Assembly (NCBI RefSeq): GCF_014076495.1
Contig: NZ_CP043575.1
Coordinates: 4,092,001 to 4,156,000, forward strand
Source: Comamonas koreensis
GTDB lineage: Bacteria > Pseudomonadota > Gammaproteobacteria > Burkholderiales > Burkholderiaceae_C
Direction of reading: 5' to 3'
DNA: 64,000 bases
Part shown: piece by piece, positions 46,722 through 54,575 of the stretch
Layout of the letters: the number at the start of each line of letters is the position of its first letter
How positions within the stretch are numbered: the first letter of the stretch is position 1
The notes under the pieces: model-generated
Databases searched by the model: none
What the model saw: only the letters and a program-made list of their open reading frames with translations
What the model was told of the DNA's origin: nothing
Program-made: the position numbers and the translations under genes

Positions 46722-49094
46722 ATGGCTTCTCGCACCTCTTCCCAGGCGCAGCGTATCTCTGCGCGCGCCACTTCCACTCTCCAACCCCGTTACCTGGCCG
46801 CCGCTGTCGCCGCGCTGGTGTCTGCCGGTGCGCTTGCGCAGCAGGCTGCCCCGGATCAGCCAATGCAACTGGTGCAACTGGCGCAAGCAGAATCGACGAT
46901 GCCGCAAGTCACGGTGCAGGCCAAGGCCGAAAAGGCCCCCGGTACGGTGACCGTGATCTCCGGCGAGGAGCTGGAAAAAGCCAACAGCATGGCGGACATC
47001 TCGCGCTACCAGCCCCTGGTGTCGGCCCCCGGCACGGCATCGGGTACCAGCCGCAACCGCAGCAGCTTTGACCGCTCGGGCACCACGGGCTACAACATTC
47101 GCGGTATCGAAGGCAACCGCATCGGCATGGATGTGGATGGCATTGAAATGCCCGACGCCAGCACCCGCCCCTATGTGAGCCGCGCCGGCAACAACACCTT
47201 TGGCATTGGCCGCGACTTTATCGACCCCGAGATGTTCTCCTCGGTCGGCATCCAGTCGGGCACCACCACGGCCCGGCGCGCAGCGGGCGGCATTGGCGGC
47301 GCCGTCAGCTTCAAGACCAAGTCGGCCAGCGACTTCTTGCGCAATGGCAACACCAGCTATTTCGGCGGCAAGCTCGGCTTTGACTCGGCCGACCATTCCT
47401 GGAACGAAAGCATCACTGCAGCGGGCAAATCGGGCAGCCTCGATGGCCTGATCGCCTTCTCGCGCCGCGATGGCAAGGAGACGCAGAACAACAGCGCCCT
47501 GGGCATCAAGGCATCGCCGGAAGACTGGCATTCCAACGCGCTGCTGATGAAGGGCGGCCTGCAGATCGATGCCGAGAACCGCCTGGAGCTGTCTGCCGAC
47601 CTGTACCGACGCAGCAACCAGAACCAGTTCTATGGCTGGAGCAGCGACAACAGCGCCATCACACAAAACAATATGCAGGACAGCGACACCAGCCGCAACA
47701 CGCTGCAGCTGTCGCACCTGTGGACGCCCAGCAGCGCCTTTGTCGATCAGCTGGACACGCGCCTGTTCTTCCAGAACACCGATACCGAAGACGTGACCGA
47801 CACCACCACCTTGGCGAGCGGCGCCGTTACGCGCAACCTGTCGCAAAACAAGACCAAGGCCTGGGGCCTCTCGACCACCGGCGACAAGCGCATCGACCGC
47901 CACCGCATCAGCTTTGGCTTCAACGCGCAGACGCAGAGCCAGGAGCGCCCCTGGAACGTGCCTGGCTACATGAAGCCACAGCCCGACACCGACACCCTGC
48001 GCCTGGGCGCCTTCATCCAGGATGACATCGGTTTTGACGTGGGCGGCAAGCGCCTGGGCGTGATCCCGGCGCTGCGCGTGGACCGGGTCAAGGTCGAACC
48101 CAAGCACCTGGGCGATTTTGCCGAAGGCGCTTTGACCGAAGACGCGGCCTCCAAGCTGTACAGCAACCTCAGCAGCACCATCTGGAGCCCGAGTATGGGT
48201 CTGACCTATGAACTGACGCCCAAGTTCATGGCCTACGGCCAGTACAAGCGCAGTGGCCGTGCACCTACGGCCGGTGAAGTGTTCGGCTCCTGGAACATGG
48301 ACCAGAACTACGCGGGCTCCGCCCAGTACGCGCTGATCGGCAACAGCAACCTCAAGCAAGAGACCAGCAACGCCTTTGAGCTGGGCGTCAAGGGATCGCC
48401 CGCCGACGGCGTGCTGTTCAATGCCTCGACCTTCTACACGCGCTACAAGGACTTCATCGGCTACACCCGCTACACCCGCGCCAGCGCGCCGGACAAGTTC
48501 AGCAATGTGCCGGCCCACATCGGCACCATCTACCAGGCCGAGAACCGCGACGAGGCAACGATCTATGGCCTGGAGATGAGCGCCCGCCTGGACCATGGCC
48601 AATGGGCACCCGCCGTCAAGGGCCTGTACTCGACCTGGGCGCTGGGCCTAGCCCATGGCACCTCCAAATCCAACTACGCGGGTGACAAGGATGTGCCGCT
48701 GGATACCGTCCAGCCACGCAAGGCCGTCATCGGCGTGGGCTATGACGCGCCCATGCGCGCCTGGGGCGTCAACATGACCGGCACCTTTGTCGCCGGCAAG
48801 CAGGCCCAGGCCACCAACCGCGAAAGCTATACCAATGCCGGCACCGACATTGCCGACTCCAGCATCGCGCAGTTCCGCGTGCCCGGCTATGCGCTGTTCG
48901 ATCTGTCGGGCTACTGGCAGATCAACAAGAACGCCCGCCTCAATGTCGGCATCTACAACCTGACGGACAAGCGCTACTGGGATTACGCCAGCAGCCGCAG
49001 CCTGCAGCCCTCCGTCGCCAAGGACCAGCGCGACATCCAGCTGCTGACCAACCCGGGACGCACCTACGCCGTGTCGTTGAACGTCAATTTCTAA
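46722..49094 (+). CDS. TonB-dependent heme/hemoglobin-type receptor
   Basis: Outer-membrane receptor of 790 residues, start ATG 46722 (MASRTSSQAQRISARATST) with a long signal peptide ending near ALAQQA. The plug begins MPQVTVQAKAEKAPGTVTVI and includes GTTGYNIRGIEGNRIGMDVDG. The barrel has RAPTAGEVFGSW followed by GNSNLKQETSNAFELGVKG, which matches the FRAP...NPNL region of heme receptors. It ends TYAVSLNVNF with a terminal Phe. Ligand assignment as heme is likely but not certain. It heads a unit with an EF-hand lipoprotein and a DUF4198 protein. Confidence 0.9.
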   Translation: MASRTSSQAQRISARATSTLQPRYLAAAVAALVSAGALAQQAAPDQPMQLVQLAQAESTMPQVTVQAKAEKAPGTVTVISGEELEKANSMADISRYQPLVSAPGTASGTSRNRSSFDRSGTTGYNIRGIEGNRIGMDVDGIEMPDASTRPYVSRAGNNTFGIGRDFIDPEMFSSVGIQSGTTTARRAAGGIGGAVSFKTKSASDFLRNGNTSYFGGKLGFDSADHSWNESITAAGKSGSLDGLIAFSRRDGKETQNNSALGIKASPEDWHSNALLMKGGLQIDAENRLELSADLYRRSNQNQFYGWSSDNSAITQNNMQDSDTSRNTLQLSHLWTPSSAFVDQLDTRLFFQNTDTEDVTDTTTLASGAVTRNLSQNKTKAWGLSTTGDKRIDRHRISFGFNAQTQSQERPWNVPGYMKPQPDTDTLRLGAFIQDDIGFDVGGKRLGVIPALRVDRVKVEPKHLGDFAEGALTEDAASKLYSNLSSTIWSPSMGLTYELTPKFMAYGQYKRSGRAPTAGEVFGSWNMDQNYAGSAQYALIGNSNLKQETSNAFELGVKGSPADGVLFNASTFYTRYKDFIGYTRYTRASAPDKFSNVPAHIGTIYQAENRDEATIYGLEMSARLDHGQWAPAVKGLYSTWALGLAHGTSKSNYAGDKDVPLDTVQPRKAVIGVGYDAPMRAWGVNMTGTFVAGKQAQATNRESYTNAGTDIADSSIAQFRVPGYALFDLSGYWQINKNARLNVGIYNLTDKRYWDYASSRSLQPSVAKDQRDIQLLTNPGRTYAVSLNVNF

Positions 49095-49124
49095 GCTTTT
49101 CTCCCACCACGAAAGGACCCCAGC

Positions 49125-49649
49125 ATGAACCGCTTTTCCGCCGCCATGACCGCAGTCGCCGCCGCCGCGCTGCTCAGCGCCTGCGCCAGCAACAACGGCA
49201 ACAACAGCAAGACCGCAGCGCCCGCCGCTGCCGCCAAGACCGAAGCCAAGGGCCCGGTCACGCCCGTGGGCGGCCACGGCCACAATGCCTTCATGGGCGG
49301 CTATGACGCCAACCGCGACGGCGTCGTCACCCGGGACGAATACGACACCCTGCGCAAACAGCGCTTCGTCGCCGCCGACACCAACAAGGATGGCTGGCTG
49401 AGCGAGGACGAATACGTGGCCGAGTTTGAAGGCCGCCTCAAGGCCCAATATGCCGCCGCAGGCAAGAAGCCCGATCAGCAGTACGAAGGCAGCATCAAGC
49501 AGGCCCATGTGCGCTTCCACATCCTCGATACCAACAAGGATGGCAAGCTGAGCATCGAAGAGGAAATCGATATCGCCAACAAGACCTTCAAGAACGCCGA
49601 CCGCAATGGCGACGGCGTGGTCAACGCAGCCGACATGGCAGGCCAGTAA
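49125..49649 (+). CDS. EF-hand lipoprotein
   Basis: A 174-residue lipoprotein; AAAGGA lies upstream of the ATG at 49125. The signal ends in the lipobox LLSAC with Cys20. Four EF-hand loops can be read: DANRDGVVTRDE (61-72), DTNKDGWLSEDE (85-96), DTNKDGKLSIEE (135-146) and DRNGDGVVNAAD (159-170), the last ending in Asp rather than Glu. It starts 31 bases after the receptor. Ca2+ binding is expected from the family; a link to metal or heme uptake is inferred from the operon. Confidence 0.88.
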   Translation: MNRFSAAMTAVAAAALLSACASNNGNNSKTAAPAAAAKTEAKGPVTPVGGHGHNAFMGGYDANRDGVVTRDEYDTLRKQRFVAADTNKDGWLSEDEYVAEFEGRLKAQYAAAGKKPDQQYEGSIKQAHVRFHILDTNKDGKLSIEEEIDIANKTFKNADRNGDGVVNAADMAGQ

Positions 49650-49652
49650 GCC

Positions 49653-50444
49653 ATGCAAGCGCGCCACCTGTTTGCTGCGCTTGCCGCGACGTTCAGCCTG
49701 AACGCCGCCCAGGCCCACATGCCCTTTCTGATGCCCAGCGTGTTTGATGTGCAGCCCAAGTCCACCCTCAGTGTGGATGCGGGCTTTGCAGAAAAACTGT
49801 TCCTGTCCGAGGTCCAATTTGGCCCCACGCCGTTCAGTATCACCACGCCCTCGGGCACCACGTTGCCCTTTGGCGAGGTGCACCAGTTCAAGTCCCGCAC
49901 AGTGGCGGAGCAACAACTGCCCGACGAAAAAGGCAGCTACCGCCTCTCTACCGGCCCGCGCCTGGGTGCGATCTTTCGCAGTTGGGAAGTGAATGGCAAA
50001 ACCATCGTCGTGCGCGACCCCAAGGCCGTCATGCCCGAAGGTGGCGTAATGAAGGTGCACTACCAGTCACTGTCGGTTTCCGAGGCCTACGTCACCGCCG
50101 GTGCGCCCACCCCCATCAAGCCCCACGGCAAAGGGCTGGAGATCGTGCCCAGCACGCACCCCAGCGACGTGTTCGCCGCAGAGAAATTCAACTTTGCGGT
50201 GCACTTTGATGGCAAGCCGCTGGCAGACCAGAAGGTCAGCATCTACCGCTCACCGATGGACCTGCAAGGCCAGAACAGCGTAGATGAGCTCAGCACCGAC
50301 GCGCAAGGCGACATCAGCTGGACCCCGAGCAAGCCAGGCATCTACATGGCCCTGGTGCGCCACCGTGCCCCTGCCCCTGAAGGCGCTGCCGCGCCGACCT
50401 ATGGCTACAACTACACGCTGACCTTCCGGGTGCTGGCGCAGTAG
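49653..50444 (+). CDS. DUF4198 periplasmic protein
   Basis: A 263-residue exported protein, MQARHLFAALAATFSLNAAQAHMPFLMPS, with a signal peptide cleaved after AQA so that the mature chain starts with His. HMPFLMPSVF and later VHFDGKPLADQKVSIYRSP, STDAQGDISWTPSKPGIYMALVRH match the DUF4198 family, often linked with nickel/cobalt or TonB-dependent metal uptake. It starts four bases after the EF-hand gene. Its role in metal binding is inferred. Confidence 0.85.
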   Translation: MQARHLFAALAATFSLNAAQAHMPFLMPSVFDVQPKSTLSVDAGFAEKLFLSEVQFGPTPFSITTPSGTTLPFGEVHQFKSRTVAEQQLPDEKGSYRLSTGPRLGAIFRSWEVNGKTIVVRDPKAVMPEGGVMKVHYQSLSVSEAYVTAGAPTPIKPHGKGLEIVPSTHPSDVFAAEKFNFAVHFDGKPLADQKVSIYRSPMDLQGQNSVDELSTDAQGDISWTPSKPGIYMALVRHRAPAPEGAAAPTYGYNYTLTFRVLAQ

Positions 50445-50530: not shown

Positions 50531-51451
50531 TCACCAGCTGGCATCCGCCCTCCCCGGCGGGCGCTGGGGCGCAAACACCTCGACCAGATGGTCCACCAGC
50601 GCTTTTGTCTTGGCCGGCAGATGGGCGCCACCCTGGAACTGCAGATAGATATCGGCCGGTGGCAGCCGCCACTGCGGCAACACCTGCTGGAGCTGGCCCG
50701 CGCGCACGAGCGGGCCGACCTCCCACTCCGAGCGCATCAAGATGCCGTGCCCGGCCATCGCCCAGGCCGTGGCCGACTCTCCATCGTTGGCACTCAGCGG
50801 CCCCCTCACCTTCACGGTTTCTGTCTGCGCGCCATTGCGCAGATGCCAGGTGCCAAACGCCTCGTCGCCCTCGCGGATAAAGAGGCAGGCATGGCGCGTC
50901 AGCTCCTGCGGTGACAATGGCGCGCCCATTGCTTGCAGATAGCGCGGTGAGGCACAGAGCACACGGCGGTTGCGTGCCAGCACCCTGGCCGTCCAGCGGG
51001 AATCCGGCATATCGCCCATGCGGATGACCAAGTCGAAACGGTCCTCCAGGAGGTCGGCAGGCCGGTCGCTCAGCTGCAGCTGCACCTCGACCTGCGGAAA
51101 GCGGCGTGCAAAGGCCCCCAGCGCCGGCGCAATATGCCGCCGGCCAAAGCCGAAGGTGGCGTTGACCCGCAACAGGCCCTGCGGCACAGCGGCTGCCCCA
51201 CCAATGGCGCGCTCCAGCGAACCCAACTCGGAGAGCAGACGCGCACCTTCGACAAGGTAGCGCTCACCCTCAGGCGTCAGGCTCATGCGGCGGGTGGTTC
51301 TTTGCATCAGCCGGGCGCCCAGCCGGGCTTCGAGCGCTGCAAGGCGCTTGCTGACGGCGGGACCTGTGACACCCAGCTGCTGGGCCGCGCTGCGCATGCT
51401 GCCCTCTTTGCTGAGCAGCGCAAAAAAGGCGATGTCAGAAAATCCATCCAT
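50531..51451 (-). CDS. LysR-family regulator (divergent from leuCD-like operon)
   Basis: 306 residues from ATG 51451 (MDGFSDIAFFALLSKEGSM), six bases after GGAG; an upstream TTG is less likely. Winged helix SMRSAAQQLGVTGPAVSKRLAALE and effector half FDLVIRMGDMPDSRWTARVL are intact. It is divergent from the leuC-like gene with 97 bases between starts, so it very likely regulates that operon. Confidence 0.88.
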   Translation of the reverse strand: MDGFSDIAFFALLSKEGSMRSAAQQLGVTGPAVSKRLAALEARLGARLMQRTTRRMSLTPEGERYLVEGARLLSELGSLERAIGGAAAVPQGLLRVNATFGFGRRHIAPALGAFARRFPQVEVQLQLSDRPADLLEDRFDLVIRMGDMPDSRWTARVLARNRRVLCASPRYLQAMGAPLSPQELTRHACLFIREGDEAFGTWHLRNGAQTETVKVRGPLSANDGESATAWAMAGHGILMRSEWEVGPLVRAGQLQQVLPQWRLPPADIYLQFQGGAHLPAKTKALVDHLVEVFAPQRPPGRADASW

Positions 51452-51548
51452 TCGTAACTCCAACGACCGAAAGTCTTTCTCTGCCGCGCATTGTATATTT
51501 CCACTTCACCTGTGAGACTAGAGTTAACTAACGAAATAGATCACCCCC

Positions 51549-52964
51549 ATGCACCGCACTCTTTACCGCAAGCTGGTCGACACCCATACCGTCGCCCAGC
51601 TCGACGCGCACAACGTCTTGCTGTTCTGCGACCTGCACTTGATGAACGAGTACACCAGCCCCCAGGCCTTTGCTGGCCTGGACGCGCAAGGGCGCAATGT
51701 GCTGATGCCCGGCCAGAACATGGCCGTCGTCAGCCACGTGATTCCGACCGAGCCGGGCGCCATCCGGGTCATCCGCGATGCCGCACCCGCGCTGCAGGCC
51801 AGCAAACTGCGCAAGAACTGTGAGCAGCACGGCATCCCCTTGTTCGACACCCAGGATGCGCTGCAAGGCATCGAGCATGTGGTGGCGCCTGAGCACGGCA
51901 TGGTCCGGCCGGGGATGGTGGTCATTTGCGGCGATTCGCACACGACCACCTACGGTGCGCTGGGCGCGCTGGGCTTTGGCATCGGCACCTCGGAGGTCGA
52001 GCATGTGCTGGCCACGCAGACCTTGGTGTACCGGCTCGCCAAGGACATGCGCATCCAGGTCGATGGCGTGCTGCCGCTGGGCACCAGCGCCAAGGACCTG
52101 ATCCTGATGGTCATCGGCCATATCGGCGCCCAGGGTGCCCGAGGCCATGTCATCGAGTTCTGCGGCACGGCATTTGACGCCATGTCGATCGAAGCCCGCT
52201 TTACCGTGTGCAACATGGCCGTCGAGGCAGGCGCCCGTGGCGCCTTGATTGCGCCCGACCAGAAGGCCGCAGACTATGTGCTTGCGCGCTCCGCAGACCT
52301 GAACGGCCCCCTCCGGCAGGCCGCCCTGCAGCACTGGGCCAGCTTGCGCAGCGATGAAGGCGCGGCGTTCGATGTGGAGCACCGTTTTGACGCCAGCGAT
52401 GTACCCCCGCATGTGACCTGGGGCACCAGCCCGGACCAGGTCGCGCCCATTGGTGGCGCGGTGCCCGACCCGGCGATGCAGCCCCCTGGGCCAATGCGCC
52501 GCAGTACCGAGCAGGCGCTGCGCTACACCGGGCTCGCCGCAGGCACACCGCTGGAGGGCATCGCCATCCAGCATGTCTTTATCGGCTCCTGCACCAATGC
52601 CCGCATTGAAGACCTGCGGGCCGTGGCCGAGGTGGTGCGTGGGCGCCAGGTCGCCCAAGGGGTCCGCGCCATGGTGGTGCCGGGCTCCGGCGCGGTCAAG
52701 CGGCTGGCAGAAGCAGAAGGCATTGCCAGCCTGTTGCTGGAGGCTGGCTTTGAATGGCGGGAGCCGGGCTGCTCCATGTGCCTGGCGATGAACGGGGACA
52801 TCCTGGCAGACGGTGTGCGCTGTGCCTCCACCACCAACCGCAATTTCGAGGGGCGCCAGGGACGCGGTGCCATCACCCACCTGATGAGCCCTGCGATGGC
52901 AGCCGCCGCTGCCATCACCGGCACCATTACTGACGTTCGCCGCCTGGAGACCCGCCATGCGTGA
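51549..52964 (+). CDS. 3-isopropylmalate dehydratase-like large subunit (aconitase family)
   Basis: Hydro-lyase subunit carrying a [4Fe-4S] cluster. The 471 residues start MHRTLYRKLVDTHTVAQLDA. Cluster ligands are Cys348 (GSCTNARIEDL) and Cys408/Cys411 (EPGCSMCLAMN); GDSHTTTYGALGALGFGIGTSEVEHVLATQ is typical of LeuC. It is not beside leuB or leuA but in an operon with a LeuD-like subunit and a dehalogenase-like hydrolase under a LysR regulator. It may therefore be a catabolic paralogue acting on a substituted malate rather than leucine biosynthesis. Confidence 0.9.
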   Translation: MHRTLYRKLVDTHTVAQLDAHNVLLFCDLHLMNEYTSPQAFAGLDAQGRNVLMPGQNMAVVSHVIPTEPGAIRVIRDAAPALQASKLRKNCEQHGIPLFDTQDALQGIEHVVAPEHGMVRPGMVVICGDSHTTTYGALGALGFGIGTSEVEHVLATQTLVYRLAKDMRIQVDGVLPLGTSAKDLILMVIGHIGAQGARGHVIEFCGTAFDAMSIEARFTVCNMAVEAGARGALIAPDQKAADYVLARSADLNGPLRQAALQHWASLRSDEGAAFDVEHRFDASDVPPHVTWGTSPDQVAPIGGAVPDPAMQPPGPMRRSTEQALRYTGLAAGTPLEGIAIQHVFIGSCTNARIEDLRAVAEVVRGRQVAQGVRAMVVPGSGAVKRLAEAEGIASLLLEAGFEWREPGCSMCLAMNGDILADGVRCASTTNRNFEGRQGRGAITHLMSPAMAAAAAITGTITDVRRLETRHA

Positions 52965-53640
52965 GCAACATATCCTGAGCGGCAAGATGGCCGCCTTGGC
53001 CATCGAGAACCTGGACACCGACCAGATCATGCCCAAGCAGTTTCTGCACGGCATCGACAAGGCCGGGCTGGACAAGGGCCTGCTGTACGACCTGCGCTTT
53101 GATGCCGCAGGCCACCGGCGCCCAGGCTTTGTGCTGAACCAGCACGAGCGCGCCGATGTCGAGGTGCTGGTGGCTGGCGCCAATTTTGGCTGCGGCTCCA
53201 GCCGAGAGCACGCCGTCTGGGGGCTGCAGCAGTACGGCATCCAGGCCATCATCGCGCCCAGCTTCGGAGAAATCTTCTACTCCAATGCGATGAACAACCA
53301 GCTGCTGCTGGTCATGCTGCCTGAGGCAGACATCGCCCAGCTCATGGCCGATGCAGGCAGCCTGGAGACCTCACAGGTCCATATCGACCTGCAGACCCTC
53401 CGGGTCAAGAGCCCGAGCGTGGACGCGCGTTTTAGCCTGTCGGAGCGCCACCACCGCATGCAGCTCGAACGCAGAGACCTCATCGGCATGTCGCTGATGT
53501 ACCAGGCGGAGATCACGCATTTTGCGCAACGCCACTGGGCGGCCTATCCTTGGCTCCAAGATGTGGCCCTACGCACCCGCCAGCAACTGGGCGCTACGCC
53601 ACGCGCACAGCCACCGGCCAGCCTTGGAGGAAAAGCCTGA
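52957..53640 (+). CDS. 3-isopropylmalate dehydratase-like small subunit
   Basis: Partner of the LeuC-like protein, 227 residues starting MREQHILSGKMAALAIENLD. NLDTDQIMPKQFL and the swivelling-domain hallmark NFGCGSSREHAVWGL are present. It overlaps the large subunit by eight bases, and GGAG lies ahead of its ATG. The C-terminal ~20 residues (LGATPRAQPPASLGGKA) are a tail not usual in LeuD. Confidence 0.9.
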   Translation: MREQHILSGKMAALAIENLDTDQIMPKQFLHGIDKAGLDKGLLYDLRFDAAGHRRPGFVLNQHERADVEVLVAGANFGCGSSREHAVWGLQQYGIQAIIAPSFGEIFYSNAMNNQLLLVMLPEADIAQLMADAGSLETSQVHIDLQTLRVKSPSVDARFSLSERHHRMQLERRDLIGMSLMYQAEITHFAQRHWAAYPWLQDVALRTRQQLGATPRAQPPASLGGKA

Positions 53641-54518
53641 TGTTCGAGCGTTTTGACACCCGCGATGTGCCCGTCAACGGCACCGTGATTCGTTGCCGCG
53701 TAGCAGGCACCGGCCCAGCCCTGTTGCTGCTGCATGGCCATCCGCAGAGCCATGTGATGTGGCACCGCGTGGCGCCGGCGCTGGCCGAAACATTCACCGT
53801 CGTCTGCGCCGACCTGCGCGGCTATGGCGACTCAGCCCGCCCCGGGGCCAGCCCGCACAATGCGGCGTACAGCAAGCGCACGATGGCCCAGGACATGGCC
53901 GATATGATGACCCGCCTGGGCTTTGCGCAGTTTCGCCTTGCCGCCCATGACCGGGGCGCCCGCGTGGCCCACCGGCTGCTGCTGGACCACCCGGGCCGGG
54001 TGACGCGCGCCATGCTGCTCGATATTTCACCGACCCTGGCCATGTACGAGCAAACCACAGAAGCCTTCGCCAAGGCCTACTGGCACTGGTTCTTCCTCAT
54101 CCAGCCAGCACCGCTGCCAGAGCGGCTGATTGACGCCGACCCCGCCGCCTATATCCGCGATGTCATGGGGCGCCGCCACGCCGGCCTGGCTGCCTTCGCG
54201 CCCGAGGCGCTGCAAGAGTACCTGCGCTGCATCGCCATCCCAGGCACCGCCACCGCCATCTGCGAGGACTACCGCGCATCCGCCGGCATCGACCTGGAGC
54301 ACGATCGGGCAGACCGTGCCAACTGCCACCAAGTGACGGCCCCGCTGCGCGTGCTATGGGGTGCGGAAGGCGCCGTGGGGCGCTGCTTTCCGGTGTTGGA
54401 CCTGTGGCGCGAAGCCGCCACTGAAGTCAGCGGCAAAGCGCTCGACTGCGGCCACTACATTGCTGAAGAGCAGCCAGCACAGTTGCTGGAGGAGATGCGG
54501 GAATTCTTTGCTATCTGA
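53640..54518 (+). CDS. Alpha/beta hydrolase, fluoroacetate/haloacetate dehalogenase-like
   Basis: 292 residues starting MFERFDTRDVPVNGTVIRCR; its ATG overlaps the leuD-like stop as TGATG after GGAGG. All residues that define fluoroacetate dehalogenase are present in order: nucleophile Asp104 with Arg105 and Arg108 (HDRGAR), Asp128 (LLDISP), halide ligands His149-Trp150 (WHWFF) and Tyr211 (EDYRA), and catalytic His272 (GHYIAEE). LHGHPQSHVMWHRVAP and IQPAPLPE are also shared. The tryptophan corresponding to Trp185 of the Rhodopseudomonas enzyme is not seen (RRHAG here), which could change the substrate range. Confidence 0.88.
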   Translation: MFERFDTRDVPVNGTVIRCRVAGTGPALLLLHGHPQSHVMWHRVAPALAETFTVVCADLRGYGDSARPGASPHNAAYSKRTMAQDMADMMTRLGFAQFRLAAHDRGARVAHRLLLDHPGRVTRAMLLDISPTLAMYEQTTEAFAKAYWHWFFLIQPAPLPERLIDADPAAYIRDVMGRRHAGLAAFAPEALQEYLRCIAIPGTATAICEDYRASAGIDLEHDRADRANCHQVTAPLRVLWGAEGAVGRCFPVLDLWREAATEVSGKALDCGHYIAEEQPAQLLEEMREFFAI

Positions 54519-54546
54519 TGGGCAGGATGGCGGTGGTCGTTGCGAG

Positions 54547-54575
54547 GCCCGCTGCGGGTATCAGCGGGCTTTCTT
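54547..54575 (+). terminator. Rho-independent terminator of the leuCD-like/dehalogenase operon
   Basis: Perfect 8-bp stem GCCCGCTG/CAGCGGGC, loop CGGGTAT, followed by TTTCTT. It begins 28 bases after the hydrolase stop codon. Confidence 0.88.

Follow-up and report, generated by a model that had tools for sequence, protein, structure and literature searches.

The fluoroacetate dehalogenases (FAcD; EC 3.8.1.3), known from RPA1163, Burkholderia FA1, Delftia D4B (structure 9c9f) and Daro3835 (structure 8sdc), share a fold, a set of catalytic residues, an arginine pair and a His-Trp-Tyr halide pocket, while the isopropylmalate isomerase LeuCD (EC 4.2.1.33) is a two-subunit iron-sulphur (Fe-S) hydro-lyase. 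Both enzyme families are known; on their pairing in one operon our literature search found no paper. Such an operon lies in the complete, 5.2 Mb genome of Comamonas koreensis (assembly GCF_014076495.1), within a stretch of 64,000 nucleotides (contig NZ_CP043575.1, positions 4,092,001-4,156,000 of the forward strand) that we call the window and whose own numbering serves for coordinates below. An original prediction had described it as a LysR-flanked operon joining a LeuCD-like pair to a hydrolase, and this layout is borne out between 50531 and 54572. We propose that the operon, under LysR control, may serve to break down an imported C4 dicarboxylate in which a leaving group neighbours a carboxylate; the likeliest form of this proposal, to which we would give a little under an even chance, runs from 2,3-epoxysuccinate to meso-tartrate and, by way of the LeuCD-like pair (LeuCD2), to oxaloacetate. 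The original prediction had as its first option that a halogenated or substituted dicarboxylate is broken down, and with this our favoured interpretation would agree.

The hydrolase gene (53640..54518, plus strand) encodes an alpha/beta hydrolase with the FAcD fold, and its closest solved structure, 9c9f, superimposes with an rmsd of 0.8 over 292 residues at 61% identity. The Asp nucleophile, the His/Asp pair, both arginines and the halide pocket of fluoroacetate dehalogenase are all in place (Asp104, Asp128 and His272; Arg105 and Arg108; His149, Trp150 and Tyr211), with the numbering that had been predicted. According to the available portion of one source, FAcD enzymes stand close to the His-Tyr epoxide hydrolases (PMC8244358). 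In a structure-chain search, the hydrolase scored 402 bits against 9c9f and about 66-100 bits against Cif and Cif-like chains; these epoxide hydrolases are distant from it in sequence, and an equivalence of His149/Tyr211 with their residues is putative. The second-best match within the source genome has 28% identity, and the closest named relatives come from Comamonas, including C. koreensis itself, at 91-93% identity in four loci. Unlike the named fluoroacetate dehalogenases, the window hydrolase shares an operon with LeuCD2.

A further departure lies in the pocket, where Trp185 of RPA1163 has become Arg179, a change typical of the clade. RPA1163, Alr0039 and Daro3835 have Trp, Phe/Tyr and Phe where the window hydrolase has Arg179, His34 and Tyr273, whereas the Delftia D4B enzyme has the same three residues as the window hydrolase. 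A Trp at the Trp185 position together with an aromatic residue at 34, neither of which is found here, is accordingly not strictly defining, since 9c9f carries Arg179 and His34 and is nevertheless named a fluoroacetate dehalogenase. Arg occupies position 179 in 37 of the 38 hydrolases linked to leuC2, in all 61 linked to a tartrate/D-malate dehydrogenase gene (TTC/TtuC/DmlA; hereafter TTC) and in 19 of 22 other rows, but in none of 20 more distant FAcD relatives from the same bacterial family, 16 of which have Trp. Residue 34 is His in every clade row (121/121) and in one of those 20, which were our own pick from 55 matches at 43-55% identity; one gene, fetched as both L158 and L208, was counted among the leuC2-linked rows (as the sole Gln at 179) and again among the 20 relatives (as the sole His at 34). 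The three substitutions look as if suited to a second carboxylate. By their titles, PDB entries exist for mutants of the pocket Trp (Trp185), and the available part of one paper has smaller residues at this position admitting bulkier alpha-fluoroacids (PMC12955510).

The other half of the operon consists of leuC2 (51549..52964, plus strand), which encodes the large subunit, and leuD2 (52957..53640, plus strand), which encodes the small one. Like isopropylmalate isomerase, LeuCD2 is a two-subunit Fe-S hydro-lyase: cysteines 348, 408 and 411 of LeuC2, which we take from the motif to be the expected cluster ligands, are present, and LeuD2 keeps the GSSREH motif. Unlike isopropylmalate isomerase, it belongs to the PRK12466 subfamily, has no leuB alongside and has a conserved hydrolase partner. 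Among NCBIfam models, LeuC2 scored 745.5 bits with NF009116 (PRK12466) and 638.1 with PRK05478, 107 bits in favour of the former, and it is 52% identical to the canonical LeuC of its own genome. Measured against 30 canonical sequences, 35 near-fixed columns differ in LeuC2 and 17 in LeuD2, two of the latter being gaps; among them, Tyr135 of LeuC2 replaces His and Gly32 of LeuD2 replaces Ser, in a stretch that reads FLHGI for FLKSI, and AVWG stands for APWA elsewhere in LeuD2. The substrate of LeuCD2 cannot be read from these columns. In a LeuC tree, LeuC2 forms a separate clade, one branch with a support of 100 splitting its 39 rows from 8 of the 30 canonical rows.

It could be argued that LeuCD2 is a redundant isopropylmalate isomerase travelling with an unrelated hydrolase, as both subunits pass the cut-offs of the leucine models (609 bits against 560.25 for TIGR00170; 167.2 against 116.25 for TIGR00171). 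We consider this extremely unlikely given the separate clade and the differing columns just described, and none of the genes marked in the 23 leuC2 loci described below is LeuB- or TTC-like (leuA was not sought). Moreover, the original prediction had placed the pair apart from other leucine genes and suggested looking for a second leuCD with leuB; a canonical leuC-leuD-leuB cluster indeed lies elsewhere (G000 C1:1811497-1814921; LeuB scoring 479 bits with TIGR00169), so the operon genes are not the only leuCD of the genome. A role of LeuCD2 in leucine synthesis was rejected on the strength of this cluster and the separate clade.

The pairing of LeuCD2 with the hydrolase is a conserved module. 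A search of 250 genomes of the bacterial family at E <= 1e-190 returned a LeuC2 match in 24, the source genome included, and in 20 of the 23 loci from other genomes the hydrolase gene adjoins leuC2 or leuD2; a neighbourhood search of this kind had been proposed in the original prediction. A LysR gene resembling that of the window (P0004 type, 57-65% identity) lies beside the operon in 21 of the 23, and a TctC/Bug receptor gene is found in 16. Two gene orders occur, (TctC)-hydrolase-leuC2-leuD2 and (TctC)-leuC2-leuD2-hydrolase. The module is also present in five of eight annotated plasmid or secondary-replicon regions of our choosing. Two Klebsiella pneumoniae records have the order MFS-leuC-leuD-FAA hydrolase-hydrolase-LysR, the hydrolase being unannotated in one of them (L192) and matching in two pieces; Pantoea dispersa has leuC-leuD-hydrolase-LysR, Methylobacterium radiotolerans LysR/leuC-leuD-hydrolase, and Paraburkholderia LysR/hydrolase-leuC-leuD followed by a dicarboxylate symporter of the SDF family. 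Among the other regions, that of Bradyrhizobium lacks the hydrolase and combines leuC-leuD with TctC and a 2-hydroxycarboxylate transporter, and those of Rhizobium and Acetobacter carry the hydrolase but no leuCD. The LeuC proteins of L191, L193, L194, L195 and L198 score 99-130 bits higher with PRK12466 than with PRK05478, whereas canonical LeuC scores 75 bits higher with PRK05478. In several lineages, then, the transport partners (TctC receptor, SDF dicarboxylate symporter, 2-hydroxycarboxylate transporter) support a dicarboxylate substrate.

On the two Klebsiella plasmids, from milk and bovine sources, the leuCD-hydrolase-LysR operon lies between IS elements (L191 1-13410; L192 1-14856), in L192 near copper-resistance genes. 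The Pantoea version of the hydrolase, used as a query, matched 114 plasmid records, 61 of them from Klebsiella. Beside the Pantoea operon, a divergent gene annotated as malate dehydrogenase (quinone) occupies L194 3978-5624.

The hydrolase family has a second partner. Among the best 80 of 128 hydrolase loci, TTC neighbours 45 and leuC2 neighbours 15, while 20 have neither and none has both; a further 20 loci, chosen by us from 61 genomes with a match, gave 3, 7, 10 and none, respectively. The locus sets behind these counts are separate fetches that overlap in places, and some genes recur among the hydrolase rows because their contig was fetched twice (e.g., L018, L045, L149). The one TTC example tested scored 547.8 bits with the tartrate dehydrogenase model TIGR02089 (cut-off 470.4). 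TTC is a different enzyme from LeuCD2, and that the two share no locus in either set makes them look like alternatives. In both Pigmentiphaga TTC-hydrolase loci (2 of 250 loci), a MOFRL/DUF4147 gene of the glycerate-2-kinase family, with kinase models under their cut-offs, lies 2-5 kb downstream, which fits the decarboxylation of tartrate to glycerate; at the remaining loci the fetched stretch either contained no such gene or did not reach far enough to reveal one. The source genome has a TTC gene of its own (G000 C1:4056995-4058059; L137 6999-8066; 517.6 bits with TIGR02089 against 470.4), 85 kb from the operon, and the 16 kb fetched around it contained no FAcD-type hydrolase.

The history of the hydrolase argues in the same direction. 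In a hydrolase tree of 125 rows, 116 of them different, built by a quick method with SH-aLRT supports, the five Comamonas rows fall inside a group of 64 (support 97) together with 57 TTC-linked and 2 partnerless rows, and the 32 other LeuC2-linked rows fall in a group of 53 (support 95) with 19 partnerless rows, one TTC-linked row and the D4B enzyme. A single clade for the LeuC2-linked hydrolases was rejected (p-AU 0.0026; 36 rows against 82) in a test that left out seven long rows (L158, L095, L048, L059, L085 and the references 3r3u and 8sdc). The Comamonas LeuC2, on the other hand, nests among the LeuC2 of other operons, so that the hydrolase was joined to LeuCD2 independently: in Comamonas, a TTC-type hydrolase has entered a LeuCD2 operon, or has replaced an older hydrolase there. 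A hydrolase of the TTC type can thus serve LeuCD2, and LeuCD2 and TTC probably encounter one and the same compound.

One substrate of which LeuCD2 and TTC could each make productive use is meso-tartrate. It is what (2R,3S)-3-isopropylmalate becomes when a hydroxyl takes the place of the isopropyl group, by our own stereochemical reasoning, and as this hydroxyl analogue it fits enzymes of both LeuB type and LeuCD type; it is decarboxylated by TTC to glycerate, and either enantiomer of trans-epoxysuccinate gives rise to it. In the mechanism we envisage, Asp104 would attack the alpha carbon while Arg105 and Arg108 grip one carboxylate, His149, Trp150 and Tyr211 would stabilise the leaving group, and His272-Asp128 would hydrolyse the ester; the second carboxylate would be held by the changed pocket, with Arg179 for Trp185, His34 and Tyr273. 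Trans-2,3-epoxysuccinate, its ring opened by the His149/Tyr211 pair, would yield meso-tartrate, which LeuCD2 would dehydrate to enol-oxaloacetate for the tricarboxylic acid (TCA) cycle and which, in the many relatives where TTC replaces LeuCD2, would go to D-glycerate. Residues that might supply what an epoxysuccinate hydrolase of this kind should have (an Asp nucleophile, a ring-opening pair and groups for two carboxylates) are present in the sequence: Asp104, His149/Tyr211 and Arg179/His34/Tyr273. There is precedent in the cis-epoxysuccinate hydrolase CESH[L], which, in the available part of its description, works on epoxysuccinate through an Asp-ester with polar residues for two carboxylates, such cis-epoxysuccinate hydrolases being relatives of the 2-haloacid dehalogenases (PMC10869282). 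CESH[L] belongs to the HAD family, with a Rossmann-fold core, and is unrelated to the window hydrolase. Fungi accumulate trans-epoxysuccinate, according to the portion available of another source (PMC8230503). The genes, their conservation, the alternative partners, the independent recruitment and the pocket substitutions can be read from the sequences themselves; beyond them, the hydrolase probably acts on a dicarboxylate, may, with rather less than an even chance, act on epoxysuccinate in particular, and we infer the direction and the products of the LeuCD2 reaction.

Several observations weigh against this route. We know of no epoxysuccinate activity in the clade of this hydrolase. A fifth of the loci (20 of 80) have neither partner, and at least three of these loci end within 300 bases downstream; among 14 loci, 13 of them with neither partner, the neighbourhoods listed revealed no common partner, although one (L029) has a dihydroxyacid-dehydratase-like neighbour, named by eye. 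Two leuC2 loci (L145, L151) have no hydrolase in the fetched stretch, and in L158 a hydrolase relative of 51% identity lies about 3 kb from leuC2 with a LysR gene between. Hydrolases of both kinds, TTC-linked and LeuC2-linked, occur side by side in at least two genomes (G044, G130), so it may be that each system has a substrate of its own. The fluoride-pocket His, also one of the proposed ring-opening pair, is replaced by Trp in the homologues that accompany LeuCD in Klebsiella, Pantoea and Methylobacterium, a change more in keeping with a halide than with an epoxide. The partnerless relatives L196 and L197 have the same Trp together with His34, so His34 alone is no marker of the module. As a side observation, three proteins come after a hydrolase relative in L048 (7001-11600): MmgE/PrpD (by Pfam), one of TctC type and a CaiB-type CoA-transferase. 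The MmgE/PrpD protein may be a different hydro-lyase that stands in for LeuCD2.

The Trp for His also bears on the main rival, in which D-malate would be formed by the hydrolase from an acid of the 2-chloro- or 2-bromosuccinate type and oxidised by TTC to pyruvate, while LeuCD2 would be a maleate hydratase feeding the same D-malate pool. Displacement of an alpha-halide is FAcD chemistry, the window hydrolase keeps the halide-pocket residues, and the Trp-Trp pocket of the Klebsiella, Pantoea and Methylobacterium homologues resembles two-Trp halide sites. The D-malate dehydrogenases fall in the TTC family, and the source genome has its own TTC; that TTC also uses D-malate counts against epoxysuccinate as well. 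A maleate hydratase forming D-malate has been described, by the title of the report; it is presumably the LeuCD-like HbzIJ, possibly similar to LeuCD2 in its type of reaction on C4 acids. We nonetheless regard the halosuccinate route as unlikely, as the absence of LeuCD2 and TTC together from all 80 loci fits alternative consumers better than a further source of D-malate, little would be gained by dehydrating D-malate to maleate as the next step, and halosuccinates seem rarer in nature than epoxysuccinate.

A variant on branched acids deserves mention for the Polynucleobacter-type loci L087 (6899-14868), L089 and L091, where hydrolase-leuC2-leuD2 is followed on the same strand by cupin-like and lipase-like proteins (by eye), a CaiB-type CoA-transferase and an HMG-CoA-lyase-like protein, with a TctC-type protein also in the runs of L087 and L089; the best models in L087 gave 269 bits against a cut-off of 750 for the CoA-transferase and 310.1 against 246 for the HMG-CoA-lyase-like protein. 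These genes point to a 2-alkylmalate there and so add to the case against epoxysuccinate. A branched epoxy- or halo-dicarboxylate would be turned into a 3-alkylmalate, which LeuCD2 would isomerise, in keeping with LeuCD chemistry, to a 2-alkylmalate of the citramalate type that is cleaved after CoA activation. For the module at large we hold this to be quite unlikely, since no CoA-transferase or HMG-CoA-lyase-like genes were marked in the 23 family leuC2 loci or near the TTC-linked hydrolases.

The original prediction had, more speculatively, considered protection from fluoroacetate, the hydrolase removing fluoroacetate and LeuCD2 serving as a fluorocitrate-tolerant hydro-lyase. The D4B enzyme is, to our knowledge, the only studied member of the clade. 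Its genome paper lists a fluoroacetate dehalogenase (PMC8567785), and the available part of another study gives DeHa4, which is probably the D4B enzyme of 9c9f, as acting on fluoroacetate with a Km of about one tenth of 59.8 mM, against 86.8 mM for RPA1163 (PMC12184663). The lower Km means that fluoroacetate is bound no worse for the Arg in the pocket; together with the full set of FAcD residues and the Arg179, His34 and Tyr273 shared with D4B, it keeps this reading alive, at very low probability. As a whole, the original interpretation is partly upheld. In the genome with a stretch identical to 9c9f, moreover, the gene stands beside a P0004-like LysR gene (55%) with neither leuCD nor TTC adjoining, a further difficulty for epoxysuccinate. 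Protection itself finds no support, in view of the transport partners for di- and hydroxycarboxylates, TTC as the alternative partner, Arg for the pocket Trp, Trp for the fluoride-pocket His in relatives, and the NCBIfam score of LeuC2 as a LeuC, far above any aconitase model. The surroundings of the D4B-identical gene (L231 2682-9512) include TctC-type genes and an amidohydrolase whose match to the 4-sulfomuconolactone-hydrolase family stays below cut-off; they hint that dicarboxylates or lactones may be handled there.

The clade has thus been studied for breaking the carbon-fluorine bond, while its neighbourhoods and pocket changes suggest a dicarboxylate as the natural substrate. Extending the epoxysuccinate proposal, it is conceivable, if doubtful, that many of the Burkholderiales enzymes named "fluoroacetate" or "haloacetate dehalogenases", the D4B clade included, are dicarboxylate epoxide hydrolases that supply the missing gene of trans-epoxysuccinate hydrolase (presumably EC 3.3.2.4). 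Their meso-tartrate would then pass either to tartrate dehydrogenase or to LeuCD proteins that form a new branch of tartrate dehydratases, and activity on fluoroacetate would be a side reaction. We know of no sequence for trans-epoxysuccinate hydrolase, and a literature search on it returned no matching paper. Were this true, it would explain the origin of the defluorinating activity, give the orphan epoxysuccinate hydrolase a sequence, extend the LeuCD family by one reaction, and be a caution against labelling second copies of leuCD as leucine genes or hydrolases of this kind as fluoroacetate resistance.

In the window, the LysR-type regulator gene (P0004; 50531..51463, minus strand; from the list of open reading frames (ORFs) and an NCBIfam search) has a TTG start in the ORF list, with the first in-frame ATG at 51451, and its best model is TtdR, the activator of L-tartrate utilisation, at 231.7 bits, under the cut-off of 398. 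The divergent intergenic region (51464..51548) is where, by position, a regulator site and promoter are expected; a sigma-70-type promoter scan that included it found no consensus match. leuC2 and leuD2 overlap by 8 nt, and the predicted overlap of the hydrolase with leuD2 is confirmed as one base shared by the leuD2 stop and the hydrolase ATG (TGATG), the longer version from a TTG at 53550 in the ORF list being a mechanical extension. The predicted strong terminator fared less clearly: a hairpin of 11 pairs, 7 of them G-C, at 54544..54572 (plus strand) is likely the terminator closing the unit and is the longest of the terminator-like sites in a scan, but the 5 sites observed are not far above chance (2.4 +/- 1.3 in shuffles). 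Upstream of the LysR gene, 46722-50444 holds one run of, by eye, a TonB-dependent receptor, an EF-hand protein and a further small secreted protein; none of these is shown in L033, and all three are kept in L030.

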